Shown here: positions 1 through 41,003 of the stretch, piece after piece | Position numbering within the stretch: the stretch's first letter is position 1 | How the letters are laid out: every line of letters begins with the position of its first letter | Assembly: GCA_961205875.1 (NCBI GenBank) | Contig: OY540809.1 | Location: forward strand, 14,706,267-14,770,266 | Direction: 5' to 3' | From: Sialis fuliginosa | Lineage: Eukaryota; Arthropoda; Insecta; Megaloptera; Sialidae | DNA: 64,000 bases | Position numbers and translations under genes: made by a program | Notes under the pieces: model-generated | What the model saw: the letters and a program-made list of their open reading frames with translations, nothing else | Database searches by the model: none | Told to the model about the DNA's origin: nothing

Positions 1-149
1 GCTGGTTTCTTTCCTTTTTTGTGTTGTTCTGAATGTAAAAAATAATGCAAGAGTTTATTGTACATTAAGCTTATTATATAATATTTCGTCGAATTACTTT
101 TCTTGATGAAATTAATTTAATGGAAATAAATTATGATGTATTTTGTTAC

Positions 150-420
150 AATTCAGCTTTATATATTTTTTATGTATGTTCGGGCATAACTTCGACAAAC
201 ATGCACCGATTTGGACGATTTTTTTTGTTTCAAAGAGTATATAAGTACTCCTAAGGTGGTCGCATATAAATTTTATCAGAATCAGTCCATGGACTTCTTG
301 GATTCGCCACTCATAAGGGAAAAATTTAAAAAACTTGTAAAATAAAATCGTCTTTAAAATACTCTAAAAATACTGACAATGAAATTATTATTGAGTTTTT
401 TTGAAGTCAGTTTTTTATTC
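150..420 (+). repeat. Dispersed repeat, GTTCGGGCATAACT family, copy 1
   Basis: Carries the family hallmarks in order: TATGTATGTTCGGGCATAAC, a CACCGATTTGGACGA block, TTTCAAAGAGTATA, CATGGACTTC and a tail ending in TTTTTTGAAGTCAG. Copies recur at 6566, 23438, 29621, 36811 and, reversed, at 51630. The tail of better copies is itself palindromic (ACCGACTTC...GAAGTCGGT). No protein is encoded. The family is clear from recurrence within the window, but its transposon class is not known to me. Confidence 0.7.
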
Positions 421-1261
421 AAAATTGTTGAAATTATATTTGCATCTTTTTGAAAATCTTGAAAATATATGTTTTCACCATTATTTTGTGTGTGTGTGTG
501 TGTTACTGTTAAGCTTTGAAAGAAACTGTCGTATTTTGAAAGAAATCAGACAGCCGGAAACGGATGTTTGCTGTAGTCAATTTTTAAAGTATTTATTGGA
601 AAAAATGTTTTTAGCAAAAGTTTTTTAAGGATTATTTTTTTCTATAAGTTCCAGTGATTGAATAAAAAACAATTCAATGTAAATTAAAATGAATTTAGTT
701 TATTTCTAAAATTCTGTAGGGTCGTAAAAAATTTAAATATATTTTTTTCAAATATCAATTAAAGGAAACAATAAATTCGAAGTTTAAAAGGATATATAAA
801 ATATATTAAGAAGTAATAAAAATTCTTTTGTCGTTAAGGTGTGTGGGGTCTTTAACAATACTAAAGACGATCCATTTGAAAGATTTATTTGTAATTCAGA
901 AAGTGGTAATAAAAAGTACTCTTAGGAAAATTGCTTTTTTACTGTTTTTATTTATGTTATAGTATGTATATGTATTTTTCTATATTGTCAATAAGATTTT
1001 TCTGACACATGCCACATTTTTTGTATGTTTTAAAAAGTTTTTATAAAAAGAGAAAAAAAAAACTTTTTCAATTTGTTATTTTATAAAACTTATTGACATT
1101 TTATATAGAATTTGATTCCAATATGCACTTAGTTTCTTTATTTGGACTATTAATCCACCCTTTATATAAGTTATAGCAGTAAATAATGTAGAAAATTAAT
1201 TTTGTGGAAAAAATGAGGATAGCTGTTACAAATAATTAATCAAGAAATCTTTATACAAAAC
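421..1261. other. No recognisable feature; (GT)n microsatellite at 489-503
   Basis: AT-rich DNA with a short GT microsatellite. A 75-codon open frame at 401-628 starts at TTG and has no family resemblance. I see no exon, RNA gene or repeat boundary. Confidence 0.5.
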
Positions 1262-1424
1262 ATTACTCGACCGACTTTGACGAAACCTTCACCAATGTGT
1301 TCCTTGAAATCTCAGAAATGTTATAATCATACTATCACTCAAAATAGTTCAACACGCAGATAATTAGACCATATGTCTTCATAACTTTAATATTTAAGTC
1401 CTTGCGAAACCGCGAGGAACTGCT
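1262..1424 (+). repeat. Helitron-like repeat remnant ending in CTAG|T
   Basis: The segment contains GACTTTGACGAAACCTTCACC and CCTTGAAATCTCAGAAA blocks that recur (diverged) at 54000-54110 and 57715-57790. It closes with ACCGCGAGGAACTGCTAG followed by T, the CTAG|T terminus shared by Helitron-like copies in this window. The 5' end is not visible, so this is a decayed fragment. Confidence 0.4.
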
Positions 1425-2084
1425 AGTATTACATAATCAATAATATGTATAATATATTTCTTTAAGTACATCAACTGTAATAGCTTTAGTTGCAGCTATT
1501 ACGTTATATAGATTTCTAGATATAATTTTATTTAATCTTCAAACTCCGTCAACAATTTATTTTAATGAAATATTGAAGCACTCGTTGAAGTGTTTAGAAA
1601 CTTAAAAAAAGAGTAATTGCAAAAATTTACAATTCTCGTTTCTGTAAATCGCATCACTCTTAGTTATATTCTTATGCATCTCATGATTGAAAGAGTTTCA
1701 TTATAAATATTACGTTTTTGTCTCTCGTCTCTTATAAACTTCAGTCTTTTAAAATAATAATATATCATTCGTTTTTATTTAGTTCTTATTACACTTTTCT
1801 AGATTTTGTTCTTTTGTATGAACTTTGATGGTAATGTTGGTAGCAGTAATTGTTAAGTTTTATTTTAAAACTTATTTAAAAGATATTAAAATATTATTAT
1901 CATTATTATTATTAATATAAATTTCGAAATATTGGAAAAATATGAAATTAAAAATTTGTCATAATTATAATTTTTAAGCTGGATGCAACGAAATTATAGT
2001 TTTTACAATTCTTTTGTAACGAAAACTAATTTGCTGTTATAAATTAAAAATTTTAAAATTAGATTTGGGTAATGGAGCATCCGT
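1425..2084. other. No recognisable feature
   Basis: Very AT-rich sequence with ATT trinucleotide runs near 1885-1915. I see no exon, RNA gene or clear repeat boundary. Confidence 0.5.
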
Positions 2085-2285
2085 TAATTACGTAAAGCCT
2101 TGGGAGGAGGAAGGGGGTGACGTTAAACCTTACGAATCATTATGTGGGGAGGGGTAGTAGTAGTTTTTTAAAATAATTTAATGTTATAATAATTTTTTTT
2201 TAGTTAAAATATAAGGGGGGGTTAGGTTAGGTTAAGCTGAGGGAGGGAGGGTCGAAAGATAAAAAAAAAGATCCTTATGTTATTA
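2085..2285. repeat. G-rich MITE-like fragment with ATTACGTAA end
   Basis: GCATCCGTTAATTACGTAAAG at the left is followed by G-rich tracts (GGGAGGAGGAAGGGGG, GGGGAGGGG, GGGAGGGAGGG). The element at 30296-30580 has the same layout: an ATTACGTAAG end and GGGGAG tracts. No matching right terminus is visible, so this is probably a broken copy. The GGTTAGGTTAGGTTA at about 2220 is too short to be telomeric. Confidence 0.3.
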
Positions 2286-2878
2286 ATTGCCGCTCTGTAA
2301 TCGTCATTAATAAAAAGAATACAAATAATGTTAAATTTCAATTTAAATTTTATTCAAAATAAAATAATTCTAGAAGCTATAGAAATATTCATGATAAAAG
2401 AAAACGTAATATTGATACAAATTGATCAATAGTTACATCTGAAGAGTTGCAATAACATTTTATGTGCGGAATTTTTCACTGAAATATATAAAGAAATAAG
2501 AATTGAACGTAAGTATTGCCTTTGACAATGCAAGAGTTTGAATACCATTCATCTTGGGGATATATTACATAGAATTGGACGCGCTAACTCCCACAGTCAT
2601 ACAGACATAGATCTCTTTCTCTAGGTTTAGAGACGCTCTTTATGAATAGGAGAAAGAATTTATACTCGTTTAACTATTTACTTGATGTTATATAATTCAA
2701 AGTGAATTGTGGATTTTTATATAACTTTTTTATTTGTGTGGGAGGGAGGGAGGGCATTTGCTGTTTGTTATTAAATAAAAAGTTTAGATAAAGGCTTCAA
2801 ATTTATTTTATCAATATCGATATCGTTTGCGATACATTTAGGAAAGGTAGCAGCTGTCAGACATAAAAGAAAAAGATG
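2286..2878. other. No recognisable feature
   Basis: AT-rich DNA with one GGGAGGGAGGGAGGG run near 2740. No coding or structural signal was identified. Confidence 0.5.
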
Positions 2879-3101
2879 AAGAAGGTTAGGTAATACAGAT
2901 TTATGTTATGATAGTCGATAAAACAGGTCGCGCGTATAAAAATCACTTTACCTAAGATAATTGAATAATTAATCAATTTTTCGCGATATAAAGTAGCTAT
3001 CTCCCTGCCAAATTTCATCAAGATCGGTTCAGTGGTTTAACCGTAACAAACAGACAGATATACACAGAGACAGACATACGCATTTATAAAATGAGTATGG
3101 A
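2879..3101 (-). mobile_element. Helitron-like element, minus orientation, 3'-truncated
   Basis: On the minus strand it reads TCCATACTCAT..., AAATGCG, a (TCTG)-type tract, GTTACGGTTAAACCACTGAACC, GATCTTGATGAAATTTGGCAGG and GATAGCTACTTT. This order recurs in the copies at 8157, 12645, 14539 and 30582. The usual CTAG terminus and hairpin are absent at the left, so the 3' end is lost. It encodes no Rep/helicase and is non-autonomous. Confidence 0.65.
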
Positions 3102-3734
3102 TAAGTATGTACAGTTTACGACATTGAACTAGTGAACCGATTTTTATGGGATTTTGACTATTGGAAAACCTAATCTTGGGTATATGATATATTCAGACAG
3201 GTATGTATGAAGGAAAATTGAAATTTTTTAACTGACGTATTAAAAAAATTTTACAACTGATATAATATAAAATACCTTCATGTTTCCTCATATTATATTT
3301 TTATAATTAAACATTATCAAATACAACATGCAAAAAGGTATAGTTTCTATCAAAATTAATGAAATTAAACATGTTTATAAATAACATCACGATAACAAAA
3401 AATGATGAAAAACATACGATATATTTAACATAAATATGAAAAACAAACTACGCACCTATATGGATTAGGTACATAATAATTTTTTTTATAAAAACAGCTT
3501 TCAGAACACATCAAAAAGTTTTTTTTTTAACAACAAAAAGTATGTGATATAGATTTCGGTGTGCTTTTACATCTTATTTATTCTATAGAATATGTTAATC
3601 CTGAGTAATTTATGTTAACACATTCAGTGTGGTTTTGTTTTTTCGTTTTTTTTGATGTTCTATGAGTCAGGTATGAAATTTATAATACATCAAAAGTAAA
3701 AAGTGGAAAAACAGTCTAACAAGCGTCATATGTA
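3102..3734. other. No recognisable feature
   Basis: AT-rich sequence without identifiable repeats or exons. A CAG|GTATGA acceptor/donor-like juxtaposition at about 3666 has a weak context and is not called. Confidence 0.45.
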
Positions 3735-4122
3735 CAGTCACCTGCATTAATGGTCTTGCAGTTTGTATTCATTTTCGTTTATCACAAACTTAGTAGGCTC
3801 CTCCCATTTGTGCAATTATAATATTTAAATCATTTCTCCATGTATCAAACAAAGACATATATTTTGAAATTCATTTGCTAGATAAAGAACTACTCTTCGT
3901 TTACAGTACTCATATATATTTGTGAAATTAAATTATTATGTAATCTATTGAAAATTGTATACGTAAATTTTGTGGCAATAAATATTTGATATTCCGAATT
4001 TTAGTTTTTAAATATATTAAACTTGATAGAAAAAGATAACCGATGATGTTTGTCTTTAAATTTGGAATCTGTTGTAAGCGATTCTAGCCTTTAGGGTGCC
4101 AGACGAGTTCTACAGGCGACTG
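3735..4122. mobile_element. Tc1/mariner-type MITE, 388 bp
   Basis: The left end reads TA|CAGTCACCTGCA and the right end TACAGGCGACTG|TA. This gives inverted terminal repeats CAGTC(A/G)CCTG flanked by TA dinucleotides (3733-3734 and 4123-4124). TA duplication and CAGT-type ends are typical of the Tc1/mariner (IS630) superfamily. The interior has no transposase frame, so it is non-autonomous. Confidence 0.7.
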
Positions 4123-4487
4123 TACATACGTTGCTGTCGGAATTATTATTACCAGTGCACCATGTGATAAAGACAGTTTATTGGTTTTATCAGTGGCGTA
4201 TAGAAGAAAATTAATGTATTTAGTCCAATACAATCATTTTTAAAATTTAATTACGTTTAGAAGATTTTCAAAATTATTGACCTCCTCCTCTTGTAAGGAT
4301 CGTAAGAGTTAAATGACCATGTAAAATATGTATAAAATAAATTAATTTGCCTGGATCGAAATATTAGTTTTTGTTATTTGCTTACAATTTTTGATAGGAT
4401 AAATTTTCAAAAAAGATACCTAAAAATTCATAATCTATGGAAATTTTTTATAGGAGGTTTTAACTAACCAATACTCTGAATTGTATA
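4123..4487. other. Unassigned; solitary hAT-type end at 4191
   Basis: CAGTGGCGTA at 4191-4200 matches the terminal repeat of the hAT MITEs at 8864 and 33975. No partner TACGCCACTG lies within reach, so only one end is seen. The remainder is plain AT-rich DNA. Confidence 0.4.
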
Positions 4488-4640
4488 CTTTAGTATAAAA
4501 CTCTTACCCATGGTAAGAGTTTTGACAGCCCGAATCGATTTCTGATTGATTATACTCGTAGTAACCAAGTCTCACCTACAGTCATGTTAAGTCAAATAGC
4601 GACGCTGTTAAAAAACTCTTACTACGAATGTCTCTACTTT
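4488..4640. mobile_element. MITE, AGTAAGAGTT family, copy 1
   Basis: Contains GGTAAGAGTTTTGACAGCCC, an ATCGATTTCTGATTGATT block and GTAACCAAGTCTCACC, then a reversed terminal block GCGACGCTGTTAAAAAACTC and CTTACTACGAATGTCTCTAC. The same architecture recurs at 19098-19335 and 57158-57594. Its right end runs into a tandem array. Confidence 0.6.
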
Positions 4641-4935
4641 AGTATAGGCAATCCCCTCTTATCTCTCGGCCCTGAAAGACAATCCAGCAATAAAATAACT
4701 TAAATTTTTAAAAATGGCGATGATTGAAAGTTTTACTGTGAGTATATAGAATAGGGGACCCCCTCTTACCGCTCGCCTCTCAAAGACAATCTAGCAATAA
4801 AATAACTTACTTTTTTTTAAATGGCGGCGGTTGAAAGTCTTACTATTAGTATCTATACTTTAGTATCCCCCCTCTCACCGCTCGCCCCTTAAAGACAATC
4901 CAACATTAAAATGAGTTCAATTAAAAAAAATATCA
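4635..4935 (+). repeat. Tandem repeat, about 107-109 bp period, 2.7 units
   Basis: Three successive units contain CCCCTCTTA/CCCCCTCTCACCGCTCG, AAAGACAATC(C/T)AGCAATAAA, ATGGCG and TTGAAAGT(C/T)TTACT. The CCTCTT block ends at 4660, 4767 and 4876, giving steps of 107 and 109 bp. Each unit ends with TACT...AGTAT sequence resembling the end of the MITE at 4488-4640, so the array seems to have grown from the transposon end. Confidence 0.75.
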
Positions 4936-5449
4936 CATTAGTTATCTCAGTATAATTGCTTTTTAATGATTCCATTACATAATTTCTGCATTAAAGATAC
5001 TTATCAATAATGGTACTTGATACGTTTTGAAATCTACACAAGAGATCCGTCTCTTAACGAAGTACTTGTGATGTCAGACAACTTCTTTAAACCGGTTTTA
5101 TTTGACTTTTACTTTTGACGAATAGGAACTTGTATGACTCGTTTGTTCCTTCCACTTAATTTCCTTTTATTCCAAGCACCGACGATTATCATTCCCTTTT
5201 CTTCACACATGTCAAATGGCCCTCGAAATATATTTTACTTTTTCTTGCAGACTCTTTATGTTGGTATTTGAATCCAGAATGATTTAATTTTCTTAGGATT
5301 CAGATCAATTTAATGAGAAAATTTGGGCATTGTTGAAAATTACACTTTAATAACATGAAGAAATAATATATTATTTAATTGATACTATTTTGTTAAGTTA
5401 TTTTGTAGAACGTGTAGTTGTAGGAAGTAGGTATGTTGTTGAACACATA
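4936..5449. other. No recognisable feature
   Basis: Ordinary AT-rich sequence. No exon, repeat terminus or RNA gene was recognised. Confidence 0.45.
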
Positions 5450-5451
5450 TA

Positions 5452-5749
5452 CCGAGTGCGCAAAAAGTATGTTTTATTTGAGTCTGTAGTGCCCTTAAAA
5501 TGACCTTGAAAAAAAAATACATATTCTAACGTAAAATTTTCCGCTCTTTTCGAATCTGCAATAAAAAAAGGGGGTACTGTTTAAAAAATCGATTTTTGGT
5601 TCGCTGTAGCTTAGAGGTTATGTTCAAGGTCAAATTCAAGGTCACCATTGGATTTCCCGTCAAAAAATACGTCGGATATGGTATTTTCAATTTTGTTCCC
5701 GCTTATTCTGCGAAATTTTCAGGGGTTTCCATACTTTTGGCGCACCCGG
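5452..5749. mobile_element. Mariner-like MITE with TA flanks, 298 bp
   Basis: The left end TA|CCGAGTGCGCAAAAAGTATG mirrors the right end CATACTTTTGGCGCACCCGG|TA, with two or three differences over about 20 bp. TA dinucleotides flank both ends (5450-5451 and 5750-5751). A subterminal inverted AAGGTCA motif also occurs. Two overlapping open frames (5596-5829 and 5648-5851) run out of this element into the next one and are not genes. Confidence 0.7.
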
Positions 5750-5757
5750 TATGTATA

Positions 5758-6003
5758 TCCATACTATTTTTTAAAAGCGAAAGTAACTCTGTCTGTCTAT
5801 CGGTCTGTTTGTTACCATTTCACGGCTAAGCCGCTGAACCGCTCTTGGTGAAATTTGGTAGGGAAATAGCTTGCATCCGGAGGAAGAACAAAAATGTCAC
5901 GTATTATGCCGTTTTTACTGAAATATTATAATATCCGAAATAAAAAATTGATTAGATAAAAAAATACAAATTATACGCGGACGAAGTTGCGGGTAACGTC
6001 TAG
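5758..6003 (+). mobile_element. Helitron-like element, near-complete
   Basis: Begins TCCATACTATTTTT after A and ends GGGTAACGTCTAG before T. In order it has GCGAAAGTAACTCTGTCTG, CACGGCTAAGCCGCTGAACC, GGTGAAATTTGGTAGGG and AGCTTGCATCC. Just before the end, GCGGACGAAGTTGC can form the 3' hairpin that Helitrons carry a few bases upstream of CTRR. It lies 8 bp after the preceding MITE and is non-autonomous. Confidence 0.75.
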
Positions 6004-6565
6004 TTTCTAATAATTGTTTAATGCATTTTTTCTTGATTTATTCTGGAAGTAATGTTCTTGCATTATTGTGTTAGGGAATCAGTTACATTTAATACTAAAC
6101 TATATAAAAAATACATTCTAGCATATAAAATATAAAACTAAATGTATTTACTGAACCACGAGCACTGAAGGTGTCCAAGCGAGGGCCCGGTCTCACGCAT
6201 TATAATAAACACACACACCGGTGTAAATCCTTGGAGAAAGTGGGAGATTCTGGAGCATAACCACGTGTTTGTTCTCCATTAGCTGTGCCAACAAAGTTTT
6301 CTTTACGTCGTCGGCGGTCAATTATGTTGACCGGGGCTTAAGGAACAGTTGGCGGCCCCGAGATACGCTGTATCTGACAATACAGAGACGGCTTCAAACA
6401 CCTTACCGAATCTTATTTTATAGAATTCCAGATTTTGCTGAAATTATATAAAATAAGTCTTGAGTCTTAAGTTGTATAAATATGAAAGTCTCATGAAAAT
6501 CGGTTCAGTAGTTTAAATCATATGTCAAGTATTATTATGTATAATTTTGAAAATACAGAACTTAT
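6004..6565. other. Unassigned; GC-richer stretch 6160-6375
   Basis: AT-rich flanks surround a more balanced segment (AAGCGAGGGCCCGG, ACCGGTGTAAATCC, GTCGTCGGCGGTC, GGCGGCCCCGAG). A 60-codon open frame at 6269-6451 is not recognisable. The segment could be a regulatory or decayed transcribed sequence; nothing decides between these. Confidence 0.35.
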
Positions 6566-6990
6566 TTTTAACCGAATTCAAAAAAGGGAGGTTCTCAATT
6601 CGACTGTATATATTTTTTATGTATGTTCGCGCATAACTCCAGCAAATATGTACTGATTTGGACAATTTTTTATTTGTTTGAAAGAGTATACTGCCGAGGT
6701 CGTCCTACATAAATTTTATTAAAATCTGACCATGGACTTCAAAAAGAAAGGGGTTCTCAATTCGGATGTACATATATATGTTTTTTATGTATAACTTCGA
6801 CAGATATGCACCAATTTGGACGTCTTTTTTGTTTGAAAGAGAATACTCCCGAAGTGAACCCATATATTATATTTTATCAAAATCTGACCATGTACTTTGA
6901 AGATATACGTCACTCAAATGGGAACAATAAAAAACTTAAAAAAAAAAACACAAAAAACGATTTTTTCGGTTTTTTTATGTCGTTTTTTTT
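6566..6990 (+). repeat. GTTCGGGCATAACT-family repeat, head-to-tail dimer
   Basis: Two partial units follow each other in the same orientation. GTTCTCAATTCG begins at 6591 and again at 6753 (162 bp apart). Each is followed by ATGTAT, the CACC(A)ATTTGGAC block, TTGAAAGAGTATAC and AAATCTGACCATG. The second unit runs to an A/T-rich tail that stops at the TTAA where the next element starts. Confidence 0.75.
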
Positions 6991-6994
6991 TTAA

Positions 6995-7606
6995 CACTAG
7001 AAAGACGGGAAAATCTACCTACCTACAAAGACGGCGACCGGTCAAATGACTACAAATTTAGTAAATATCTTTTTTTATGAGTGGCGAAAAAAATTTAAAG
7101 TAAAGAAATAAAACAAGATCTAATGTATGATTAATTTTAATATTCACACACAATTTTTACATTTCATCTTCGGGTATATTTTGCAAAATATAAAGTATTT
7201 CGTTATCTCGAAGCCCTCGAGACATTTTTTCACAAATTACTCACAATAATATCGATCCACAATTACAGGCGGTCGAAACTTTACTGACCACTCCTTTGAC
7301 TGATAAAATAAAAGCAATTCATATACGTATTTATTGTTGTACCCTCTCAACAACAATTAAAAACATACAACAATTAAAAAAAATTATCAGATCATAACCG
7401 TCAAAAGACTGCCGCCGTCTTTGTCGGTATATCAATATTTTAAACAATAAAGAAAAGACATGTGAATTATTTTGATACATAGTATCATTTAACTACTAGT
7501 ATTAATAAAAGTCACAAAGTCTCAGTACGGTAAGTCAAATAGTTTTTAAATTATTCAATATTGAAATTGAAATTACCGTCAAATGACTGCTCCCGTCTTT
7601 CTAGTG
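6995..7606. mobile_element. piggyBac-like MITE, 612 bp, TTAA target
   Basis: Flanked on both sides by TTAA (6991-6994 and 7607-7610), the hallmark target duplication of piggyBac elements. The ends are perfect 16 bp inverted repeats starting CACTAGAAAGACGGGA, similar in form to piggyBac termini (C-C/A-C-TAGAAAGA). Subterminal GTCAAATGACT motifs appear near both ends (about 7034 and 7577), with a third, altered copy at about 7401. No transposase frame exists, so the element is non-autonomous. Confidence 0.85.
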
Positions 7607-7610
7607 TTAA

Positions 7611-8156
7611 ATCAGTAATTGACTAAAATCTGACCAAATGGCATACGTTCATATCAAAGAAAAAACTTCATGAAAATCGGTCTGACAGTTTTCAAGAAAG
7701 ACATTTAGACGTTACGTTGTATAAATATTAAGTATTGATGGAAAATAATAATGTTGGGTTCTCGATTTTCGAAGTCGGCCCTGTCCCATATCCTTCTCTG
7801 TTGGATGATATGGGATACAGATTATATCTGTTTAGTCTGCACACACAGTTTAGGCACACCGGCTGAATTATTGACACTTAGGTTCATTACTGGAAAAATG
7901 TTCGCACAGCTTTTTTTATGAAAAAGGGAAAAAATCGTGCGAATATTGGTTTCTATTTATAAATAATGTTTTATGCCCCGTGTCATTTTTAGTGTAATTG
8001 ACAGTTTTGAAACTTTACTGTGTTCGAGTTATTTATATCAACATGTGTAGCAAATATACTCATGTATATAGACATATAGTACAACATCGATGATGTGAAC
8101 CAAAATAAATTGATATTTTTGATTAATGTATCTTTTTTTCGATTTTATATTTATTA
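7611..8156. other. Unassigned; short repeat remnant at 7625-7735
   Basis: CTTCATGAAAATCGGTCTG with TTGTATAAATATT resembles 6458-6530 and looks like a decayed dispersed repeat. Nothing else is recognised. Confidence 0.4.
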
Positions 8157-8462
8157 TCCATACTGATATTATAAATGCGAAAGTAGCTTTGTCTGCCTGT
8201 CAGTTTGGTACCTGTTCACGGTTAAACCGCTGAACTGATCTTAATGAAATTTGGTAGGGAGATAACTTTCATCTTGAAGAAGGATATAGGCTACTTTGTA
8301 TCTCGTTAAATTGATTAGATTTAAAAAAAAGATTTTAAAAAGGTTATACTTTTTTGGCGTAATGACATCTAGCATGCAAATGCGAAACTAAAAACATGTT
8401 TTATCGACTATCTTAACAGAAATCTGTATTACTACACGGATGAAGTTGCGGGTAACAGCTAG
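8157..8462 (+). mobile_element. Helitron-like element, full length, 306 bp
   Basis: Inserted between A and T: it starts TCCATACTGATATTATAAAT and ends GCGGGTAACAGCTAG. Internal order is GCGAAAGTAGC, a TCTGCCTGTC tract, CACGGTTAAACCGCTGAAC, GATCTTAATGAAATTTGGT, ATAGGCTACTTTGTATC, CATCTAGCATGCAAATGCG and CAGAAATCTGTATTAC. The TC start, CTAG end and A|T insertion fit Helitrons. The 3' hairpin is eroded (ACGGATGAAGTTGCG). Confidence 0.8.
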
Positions 8463-8855
8463 TATTTATTTAAAAATGTTATTTTTCAATAAACTCTTCA
8501 GTTCAAATTTGATTTATTCTAACGTGCAGGGAATAAATTAAAAATCGAAAATAAAAACTGAAAACTAAATAAAAAAAATTGCCAAAATGTCATAGGTTCT
8601 GTCTGTAAGTTGCAAATATTTGTATTTGTTGACTATTTTTTATGCGTCAAATTTTTTTCTGCTGGTCTGATTTTTATTAATCTTTCACTGTAAGAAATTT
8701 TACGTCTCTAAAATTAGTTTTTTATTTGCTATTTGCAGGTCCGTATTAAATAAAAATAAAAATTAATGTTTTCTAATCATGAGGAAAGGATTTGATTTCA
8801 AAACATATCTAAGTAGTTTTGACAGTACAAATTATATTATTAGAATCTAGTAATC
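8463..8855. other. No recognisable feature
   Basis: AT-rich sequence between a Helitron-like element and a hAT MITE. Nothing was identified. Confidence 0.5.
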
Positions 8856-8863
8856 GTGCCTTA

Positions 8864-9266
8864 CAGTGGCGTAGGAACGGGGGGGGTTTTGGGGTCGAAA
8901 CCCCCCCCCCGAAATTTTAAAATATATGAAATTAGTATAACAATTTGGAATTTTTGTGATAATAACCCCCCCCCCCCCCGAAATATTTAATGCTGTTAAA
9001 ATATGCGAAATAAATATAAAAATTTTGAACCAAATGACCTTTTTTTTTTGATCATATAATTCATTGTATTTAATTAAATAACTAAAAAAAAAAAAGAAGG
9101 TCTTCATCATAATAATTATAATTTTCAATTGTGTGACCTTTTTTTTTTTTTTTAGTCAATAAAAGTCATAATTAACTAAAATTTTTGCTTTTTCAATCAA
9201 AAAAATTTCGCATATTTTTTGGAATATCAAAACCCCCCCCCGAAAATTTTTCTTACTACGCCACTG
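8864..9266. mobile_element. hAT MITE, 403 bp, perfect 8 bp target duplication
   Basis: Terminal inverted repeats CAGTGGCGTAG (8864-8874) and CTACGCCACTG (9256-9266) are identical over 11 bp. They are flanked by the perfect duplication GTGCCTTA (8856-8863 and 9267-9274). An 8 bp duplication with CAGTGG-type ends is diagnostic of hAT transposons. The interior holds three poly-C runs, each followed by GAAAT or GAAAA. A 93-codon open frame on the minus strand here is a by-product of this sequence. Confidence 0.92.
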
Positions 9267-39102: not shown

Positions 39103-39189
39103 ATTTTTATTTTGTTTCAGGTGAGTTACTATATTAACAATTGTCAAAATGATCATTTTGAAAATGTTTCATGGGAGTTATGAGTAAGT
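39103..39189 (+). promoter_or_regulatory. Candidate recursive splice site with 63 bp RS-exon
   Basis: A pyrimidine-rich run ending TTTATTTTGTTTCAG (39120) is followed at once by GTGAGT (39121-39126), so a 3' acceptor abuts a 5' donor. ATTAAT about 20 bases upstream could serve as branch point. A second donor GTAAGTA starts at 39184, which would define a 63 bp exon (39121-39183). Its only frame open at the start meets TGA at the last codon. Zero-length exons of this kind (ratchet points) subdivide long introns in insects. Whether it is used cannot be told from sequence alone. Confidence 0.45.
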
Positions 39190-41003
39190 AAAACAATATT
39201 TTATAATAGAATTTTCAGCACGTATTTTAATTAATTTAATAAATAATTACAGAGCTACACAAAAAGGTAACGTTTTTTCGGAAACCAGTGTATTTTTTAT
39301 GTATTTTGAGAAGTTAAGTCCGAATTTGAGGTCAAAATGAATCGAGTTTTTAACCTTAAATTCGGATTCAACGCCTCGAAATATGTAGAAATACAACAGT
39401 CTCCGAAAAAATTCTTTTTTTATGTTATTAATTACAAGAATTTTTCATTTTTAAAATCTAATTTATTTATTCGTTTAAAATAATATTCGAAATATAGTTC
39501 AAACTTATATTAATATTTTCTTTACAAAGATACATATCGTAACCAATTTGTTAAAATAATATACGTATTTTAGTATTTTAATCGTGAATGCTGGTACAAA
39601 ATGTTGAACGCAATTTAGAATAGACGGTGTAAAAAATTACAGTTATATTTTCTGTTCGGGCGATAAAAAGTAAGAACCCTTCATCAAAACAAAAAACAAA
39701 TTATTTTGTGAATCGTTCGTACAGCAGAAACCTTTTAGTTCCTATGAGTCTCTCTTACACACTCGCAAACACACACACACACCACCTCATACAGGGGCGC
39801 ACATTAGTAAATTGTTGAAAATTATTCTATATACACTCACATATATATAGTATGAATTTTAAATTGTTTCAATTTTTTATCTTGATAATTTCGATTAAAT
39901 TAATCAATCAAAATTAAATAAAACATCCAAGTGCATCTTGGGCATGAACGTGACAGGGTTCCTTAGCTATTCTCACTAACATTCTCTACTTAAAAATACA
40001 TATCAAGAGCTATTTCATATTAACGAAAAATTTAATTTCTAGAAAAAAGTTTACGTGTTCGTGTAACGATATATAAAAAAAGAGTTATTTCTATATTTTT
40101 CATATACTATTTTTACCACAGTGTTTGTCATAAATTTCATTGAAAGTACTAATTAAAATCTACATTCTGGATTTTTTTCAGAATTTTAGCATTCCTTGTT
40201 TAGAAGTTAGAGGGGGAACGCTCTATAACGACTTTGAAAACAAATATTTCGTGACTGAAGGGTTAAAATCATAAGGTTATAAACCATTTTATTGCATTTT
40301 AAAAGACCTATCTAAAGATATCTCACTCAATGGGGTAAGTGAACAAAAATAAGTAAAAACATATTTTTTCAAAATTCTCTTCATTCTGCTTTTTGGGTCG
40401 TCAATCTACGCATAGCAAATTTCATTTTAATAAGTATATAAATGAGAGAATGAGAGTGCTGTGACATACAGACAGATGGAAACCATAAGTGTTTAAAAAA
40501 ATCATCTATATATAAATAAATTCTATAATAAATAATTTAAGAACCCCGTAAAATCTGTTAAATTTCCGCCCTTGTTCACAACACACCGCTACAAAAGCAT
40601 CGCTTTTAGAATTTATGCAAAAACTGTTCAGTTAACATGTCGCTATAGAATCCCTCGAGTCTCCGTGGGATTTATTTATCCCACGTATCTTTGTAAGATT
40701 TATATATTTACAGTTAATACAAAAGTGTAGGAAAAACAGCGATATGTTTATTTGTATTGCGAAGAAACATTGCTCCGTATCGATGGCTATAATTTCCCCG
40801 ACCGCTCGCCGCTAGATGATTTATGTACCGTGTTTTTGCTTCGAGGTGTTTCTAGCAGACGACGCGGAATAACGCTGTCATTAATTATTTTATATATATT
40901 TATTTTATTTCATTCCTTGCGGTTTATGGATTTAAAGTATTTAAATCTTGTATGTCGGGTGATATAAAGAATAACAAAAGCTAAGCTTACGTTACCTGTG
41001 AGC
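39190..41003. other. Unassigned; (AC)n at 39767-39780, GC-richer 40655-40870
   Basis: Largely AT-rich. ACGTTTTTTCGGAAACCAGT (39270-39289) and CAACAGTCTCCGAAAAAATT (39394-39413) may be diverged inverted arms of a small repeat. The 40655-40870 segment is more balanced and holds frames of up to 71 codons without recognisable domains. A decayed repeat lies at 40400-40485 (AAATTTCATTTTAATAAGTA, ACATACAGACAGATGG). Confidence 0.35.

Follow-up and report, generated by a model that had tools for sequence, protein, structure and literature searches.

The window analysed here is a stretch of 64,000 nucleotides, C1:14706267-14770266 in a genome of 392 Mb (20 contigs). On its + strand a strong 3' splice site motif is followed with zero gap by a strong 5' splice site motif, and a second 5' splice site motif lies downstream. 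The elements, in window coordinates, are the following.

39106..39120, + strand: 3' splice acceptor half of the candidate ratchet point, TTTATTTTGTTTCAG, identified from the sequence; TGTTTCAG is also present at three sibling sites
39121..39126, + strand: 5' splice donor half of the candidate ratchet point, GTGAGT, abutting the acceptor with zero gap; TGTTTCAG directly followed by GTRAGT is in excess genome-wide
39121..39183, + strand: candidate recursive-splicing (RS) exon of 63 nt, homologous to the RS exons of sibling sites 1 and 2
39138..39145, + strand: CAATTGTC, within a stretch common to the four RS exons of the series; the motif was picked post hoc
39184..39190, + strand: RS-exon donor GTAAGTA, identified from the sequence

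The initial annotation described an acceptor followed without a gap by GTGAGT, with GTAAGTA 63 bp further on, and its coordinates were reproduced exactly: TTTATTTTGTTTCAG with GTGAGT occupies 39106-39126, and GTAAGTA starts at 39184, enclosing the 63 nt of 39121-39183. YAG/GTRAGT occurs once on the + strand of the window and not at all on the - strand. An equal pair, with at least 12 pyrimidines among 14 tract positions, was absent from simulated windows of which one strand was scored (0/60 first-order and 0/60 third-order Markov), while slightly looser donor patterns gave a pair in 1 of 60. Judged from the donor density on the + strand, a GTRAGT would fall 20-200 nt away by chance in about 6% of cases. 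Two hallmarks of intronic ratchet points are found here, a strong acceptor and donor in juxtaposition and an RS exon of around 50 nt with a second donor, the RS exon measuring 63 nt in this case.

Inside the RS exon, positions 39145-39160 form, by eye, a perfect 16-bp palindrome (CAAAATGATCATTTTG). On the 3' side of the RS exon, imperfect inverted repeats extend over 39273-39411 (arms 39273-39295/39389-39411 and 39294-39337/39348-39391), and might represent a MITE-type element or a small hairpin.

TGA closes frame 0 of the 63-nt exon as its last codon, and both other frames contain stops too. The initial annotation had compared this ending with poison exons. The in-frame terminal TGA is indeed present, but 43% of the 63-mers sampled from the window are equally closed in all three frames; the stop is therefore no evidence of design, and the poison exon reading was set aside, since the stops are no better than chance would give. 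A terminal coding exon, with frame 0 open until the closing TGA, was likewise rejected: there was no protein match (0 matches in a PDB comparison of the 20-aa frame-0 peptide), and the sibling exons have no common frame.

A series of four sites on one strand

The site belongs to a series of four on the + strand at which TGTTTCAG is directly followed by GTRAGT, located at C1:14637827, 14702333, 14745387 (window 39121) and 14808584, with spacings of about 64, 43 and 63 kb and 171 kb between the first and the last ratchet point. No GTRAGT-type site at the same pyrimidine cut-off was found on the minus strand in the 264 kb scanned around the window. All four sites have a second donor GTAAGT, at +50, +46, +63 and +42 in the order of sites 1-4, and the candidate RS exons of the siblings thus measure 50, 46 and 42 nt. 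The genome contains two copies of the 21-mer that spans the junction; they are both in the series on C1, on the same strand and 107.6 kb apart. In 2000 random sets of 96 sites, the number found genome-wide, the largest one-strand cluster in 171 kb also contained four sites, and therefore the size of the series alone is not beyond chance. The strength of the case lies in the summed clustering and the homology, and not in the size of a single cluster.

The initial annotation had further proposed a giant intron of a + strand gene, given the lack of exons in 64 kb. This lack was borne out, as six-frame Pfam scans of the window (except for + 1-1000 and - 1-9000) returned 0 families, although exons that are short or unfamiliar may escape such long queries interrupted by X. 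A PDB comparison of one of the three frames of - 1-9000 gave 0 matches, as did scanning the window against Rfam with gathering thresholds. The + strand is backed by the series, and three same-strand siblings over 171 kb would fit a very long intron. However, the exons that should flank the intron were not found in C1:14.625-14.910 Mb, a stretch in which ORF, GC, splice-bounded and codon-score heuristics yielded no convincing + strand coding exon. A search for the RRM family gave 133 matches, none of them at C1:14.5-15.2 Mb. The host transcript could be non-coding, or its 5' exon could be far away and its further exons could lie past the stretch that was read.

Upstream of the series, at C1:14573-14624 kb, long ORFs on both strands resemble LRR proteins by eye; an ORF about 280 kb further on (L032:3379-4254) is likewise LRR-like and matches solved LRR proteins. 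Another ORF, at C1:14789360-14789716 (+), resembles a fragment of a PIF/Harbinger-type transposase.

Genome-wide occurrence

The pattern TGTTTCAGGTRAGT has 96 matches in the genome (43 on + and 53 on -). From Markov models of orders 1 to 5, trained on the locus, 5.4 to 7.1 would be expected, and reversing the pattern leaves 2 matches. A decoy that retains the acceptor and destroys the donor (TGTTTCAGGTYAGT, with GTYAGT) has 16, with zero pairs within 250 kb. The 96 sites cluster by strand: neighbouring sites lie on one strand in all 21 pairs within 100 kb and in 32 of the 33 within 250 kb, whereas random placement gave on average 2.8, and never more than 11, same-strand pairs within 250 kb (2000 sets). 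The median gap inside runs is 64 kb, as measured with a strict motif that may miss sites. The ratchet donor is GTGAGT at 78 sites and GTAAGT at 18, against model expectations of about 2 and 4, respectively.

I read 24 of these sites, namely the four of the series and, from the 92 others, the 20 that come first in the list (contigs C1-C4, 200 nt each); they are not independent, as several are copies of one another. Of the 24, 23 had a second donor GTRAG between +20 and +105, against 8.9% per 86 nt in a control from the locus, and 19 had the full GTRAGT there, against 3.5% of locus stretches of equal length. The one site read that has no second donor is C1:42107165. The pyrimidine tract continues beyond the motif that was searched for, with T at -10 and T or C at -9 in all 24 sites.

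The preference for GTGAGT at ratchet donors exists although the AT-rich background favours GTAAGT, and GTAAGT is the first second donor, that is, the RS-exon donor, in 17 of the 23 sites that have one. The predicted energy of the U1 duplex favours the ratchet donor over the RS-exon donor in all 23 of these sites, and at the window site it is -11.7 kcal/mol for the ratchet donor against -5.1 kcal/mol for the RS-exon donor; in this comparison the ratchet donor is given its own CAG, which the end of the upstream exon would replace after the first splicing step.

Similarity within runs

A run was defined as sites on the same strand with neighbours within 250 kb, and alignments were scored only on the sequence downstream of the motif, with 3000 shuffled pairs as reference (maximum 44, 99% level 30). 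Four of the seven multi-site runs read contain at least one pair above the shuffled maximum: 13.84/13.87 Mb (score 75), the series of the window (54, sites 1 and 3), 35.36-35.51 Mb (132 to 213) and 37.82/37.88 Mb (216). Pairs from different runs score at most 32. In the series of the window, the pair of sites 1 and 2 just reaches the shuffled maximum of 44, and sites 2 and 3 score 36, while site 4 is unremarkable by pair score and linked by a short motif only. The runs at 21.96/22.18, 45.36/45.44 and C2:5.65/5.89 Mb, and a fifth site at 35.55 Mb, are absent from the 30 best pairs, all of which score at least 25.

The short motif, CAATTRTCR at +14 to +18, was chosen post hoc and is present in all four sites of the series and in 0 of the 20 other sites read. 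The longer pattern TTTCAGGTGAGTN{6,14}CAATTRTC has three matches in the genome, all within this series. Among the siblings, the bodies of the RS exons vary by indels.

In the young pairs at 35.40/35.48 and 37.82/37.88 Mb, homology reaches back about 75 or 45 nt from the junction and extends past it by at least 580 nt, the end of the sequence read in one copy, or by about 230 nt. Four ratchet-type sites on one strand (C1:35364386, 35402567, 35476022 and 35511011), 35-73 kb apart, have near-identical RS exons of 46 nt.

Discussion

The initial annotation interpreted the site as a ratchet point, and this interpretation is strongly supported, because the site is one of a same-strand series of four, the class exceeds two controls genome-wide and clusters by strand, second donors follow in 23 of the 24 sites read, and the pyrimidine tract extends beyond the motif. 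Judging from sequence, the site is most probably (roughly 0.9) a functional ratchet point inside a giant intron of a transcript from the + strand.

The proposed mechanism, from the use of the site in splicing through the order of steps to the removal of the RS exon, would be as follows. The upstream exon would be joined to the acceptor at 39120/39121, aided by exon definition across the 63-nt RS exon, from the acceptor at 39120 to the donor at 39184. The junction would recreate a donor, consisting of the end of the upstream exon and GTGAGT at 39121. As the recreated donor would outcompete the RS-exon donor at 39184, the RS exon would be lost with the next intron segment, leaving nothing in the mRNA, and the sibling sites would repeat the identical step.

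The papers on recursive splicing considered here are mainly about Drosophila and mammals. A review on piRNA mentions recursive splicing for large locust introns (PMC9962485), and no study of recursive splicing in Lepidoptera (Bombyx, butterfly, silkworm) was found in the open-licence literature. In its sequence features, the whole-genome class described here carries the marks of ratchet-point splicing known from Drosophila. The sites resemble the ratchet points with cryptic RS exons in Ubx, kuz, Bx and Ten-m (PMC8605326, PMC6110457) in their strong, touching acceptor and donor, in an RS exon that is only about 50 nt long and has a donor of its own, and in the presence of several sites in what would be one very long intron. 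However, the segments here, found with a strict motif that may miss sites, are 43-65 kb long, against about 9-15 kb for recursive segments in the fly (PMC6110457). Unlike in Drosophila, the ratchet donor is mostly GTGAGT, and a run often contains sites that are copies of one another. In the fly, cryptic RS exons are as a rule out of frame (PMC8605326), whereas the 63 nt of the RS exon in the window are a multiple of three. That source describes for mammals only nine fully suppressed RS sites in long introns as opposed to many expressed RS exons. The RS exons here are similar to the mammalian ones in that they are proposed to be defined first and then dropped through donor competition, but different from what PMC8605326 describes in that dozens of strong same-strand sites share one motif.

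A 63-nt exon that starts with GTGAGT and is sometimes retained in the mRNA as a microexon would have two good splice sites and a length divisible by three, and it would have a precedent in Ubx m1 and m2 of the fly, short exons of 51 nt each that begin with a donor inside one giant intron and are expressed (PMC8605326). But m1 and m2 preserve the frame, whereas the exon in the window is stopped in each of the three frames, and its siblings of 50, 46 and 42 nt share no frame and carry indels in their bodies, which makes an expressed cassette exon improbable here. Still less can be said for a juxtaposition by chance in AT-rich DNA. Some of the 96 matches will be of that sort, 5 to 7 by the Markov models and up to 16 by the decoy, and random sets, too, produced four sites in 171 kb on one strand; for this particular site it is a very improbable explanation, as it lies in a same-strand series of four that all have second donors, and as two siblings have RS exons homologous to its own.

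A dispersed transposable element that happens to carry the AG/GT motif, without a role in splicing, is equally hard to credit. In its favour, both young pairs (35.40/35.48 and 37.82/37.88 Mb) are homologous past the RS exon into repeat-like DNA. However, a mobile repeat is expected on both strands, and nearly all close pairs are on the same one; TTTCAGGTGAGT followed by CAATTRTC is confined to this series, and the RS exons of different runs are unrelated among the 24 sites read. A 102-nt query from the window matched only itself and its internal palindrome, in a search too insensitive to find even the siblings; the palindrome at 39145-39160 would explain the minus-strand self-match. A further possibility is compatible with the ratchet reading, being a version of it. 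The ratchet series would be genuine but would belong to a long non-coding RNA, or to alternative first introns of a gene that has several promoters. This would fit the 0 convincing coding exons found on the + strand in 285 kb, and GC-rich patches near 14.629, 14.701, 14.803 and 14.865 Mb may be promoters. I consider this version unlikely, though by no means negligible. Against it stands that the stretch read stops at 14.91 Mb, and that recursive introns in the fly are enriched among first introns (PMC6110457). First introns often begin at a 5' UTR exon.

Returning to the site as a ratchet point, the similarities within runs suggest that ratchet points may multiply by local copying. I tentatively propose, with slightly more doubt than confidence, that the giant introns of this insect gain ratchet points when a small cassette (acceptor region, AG/GT, RS exon and its donor) is copied in the same orientation to a place tens of kb away, and that the copies would be kept by selection as the intron grows, giving one paralogous family per intron. 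As repeat-like DNA abuts the copies, the copying of a small cassette is not distinguishable from the duplication of a larger block with decayed flanks. No paper on duplication or paralogy of recursive splice sites was found in the open-licence literature.

One simple search pattern yields dozens of strong ratchet sites in same-strand runs that can be tested. The paralogy within runs, if true, bears on the origin of new ratchet points during intron expansion.
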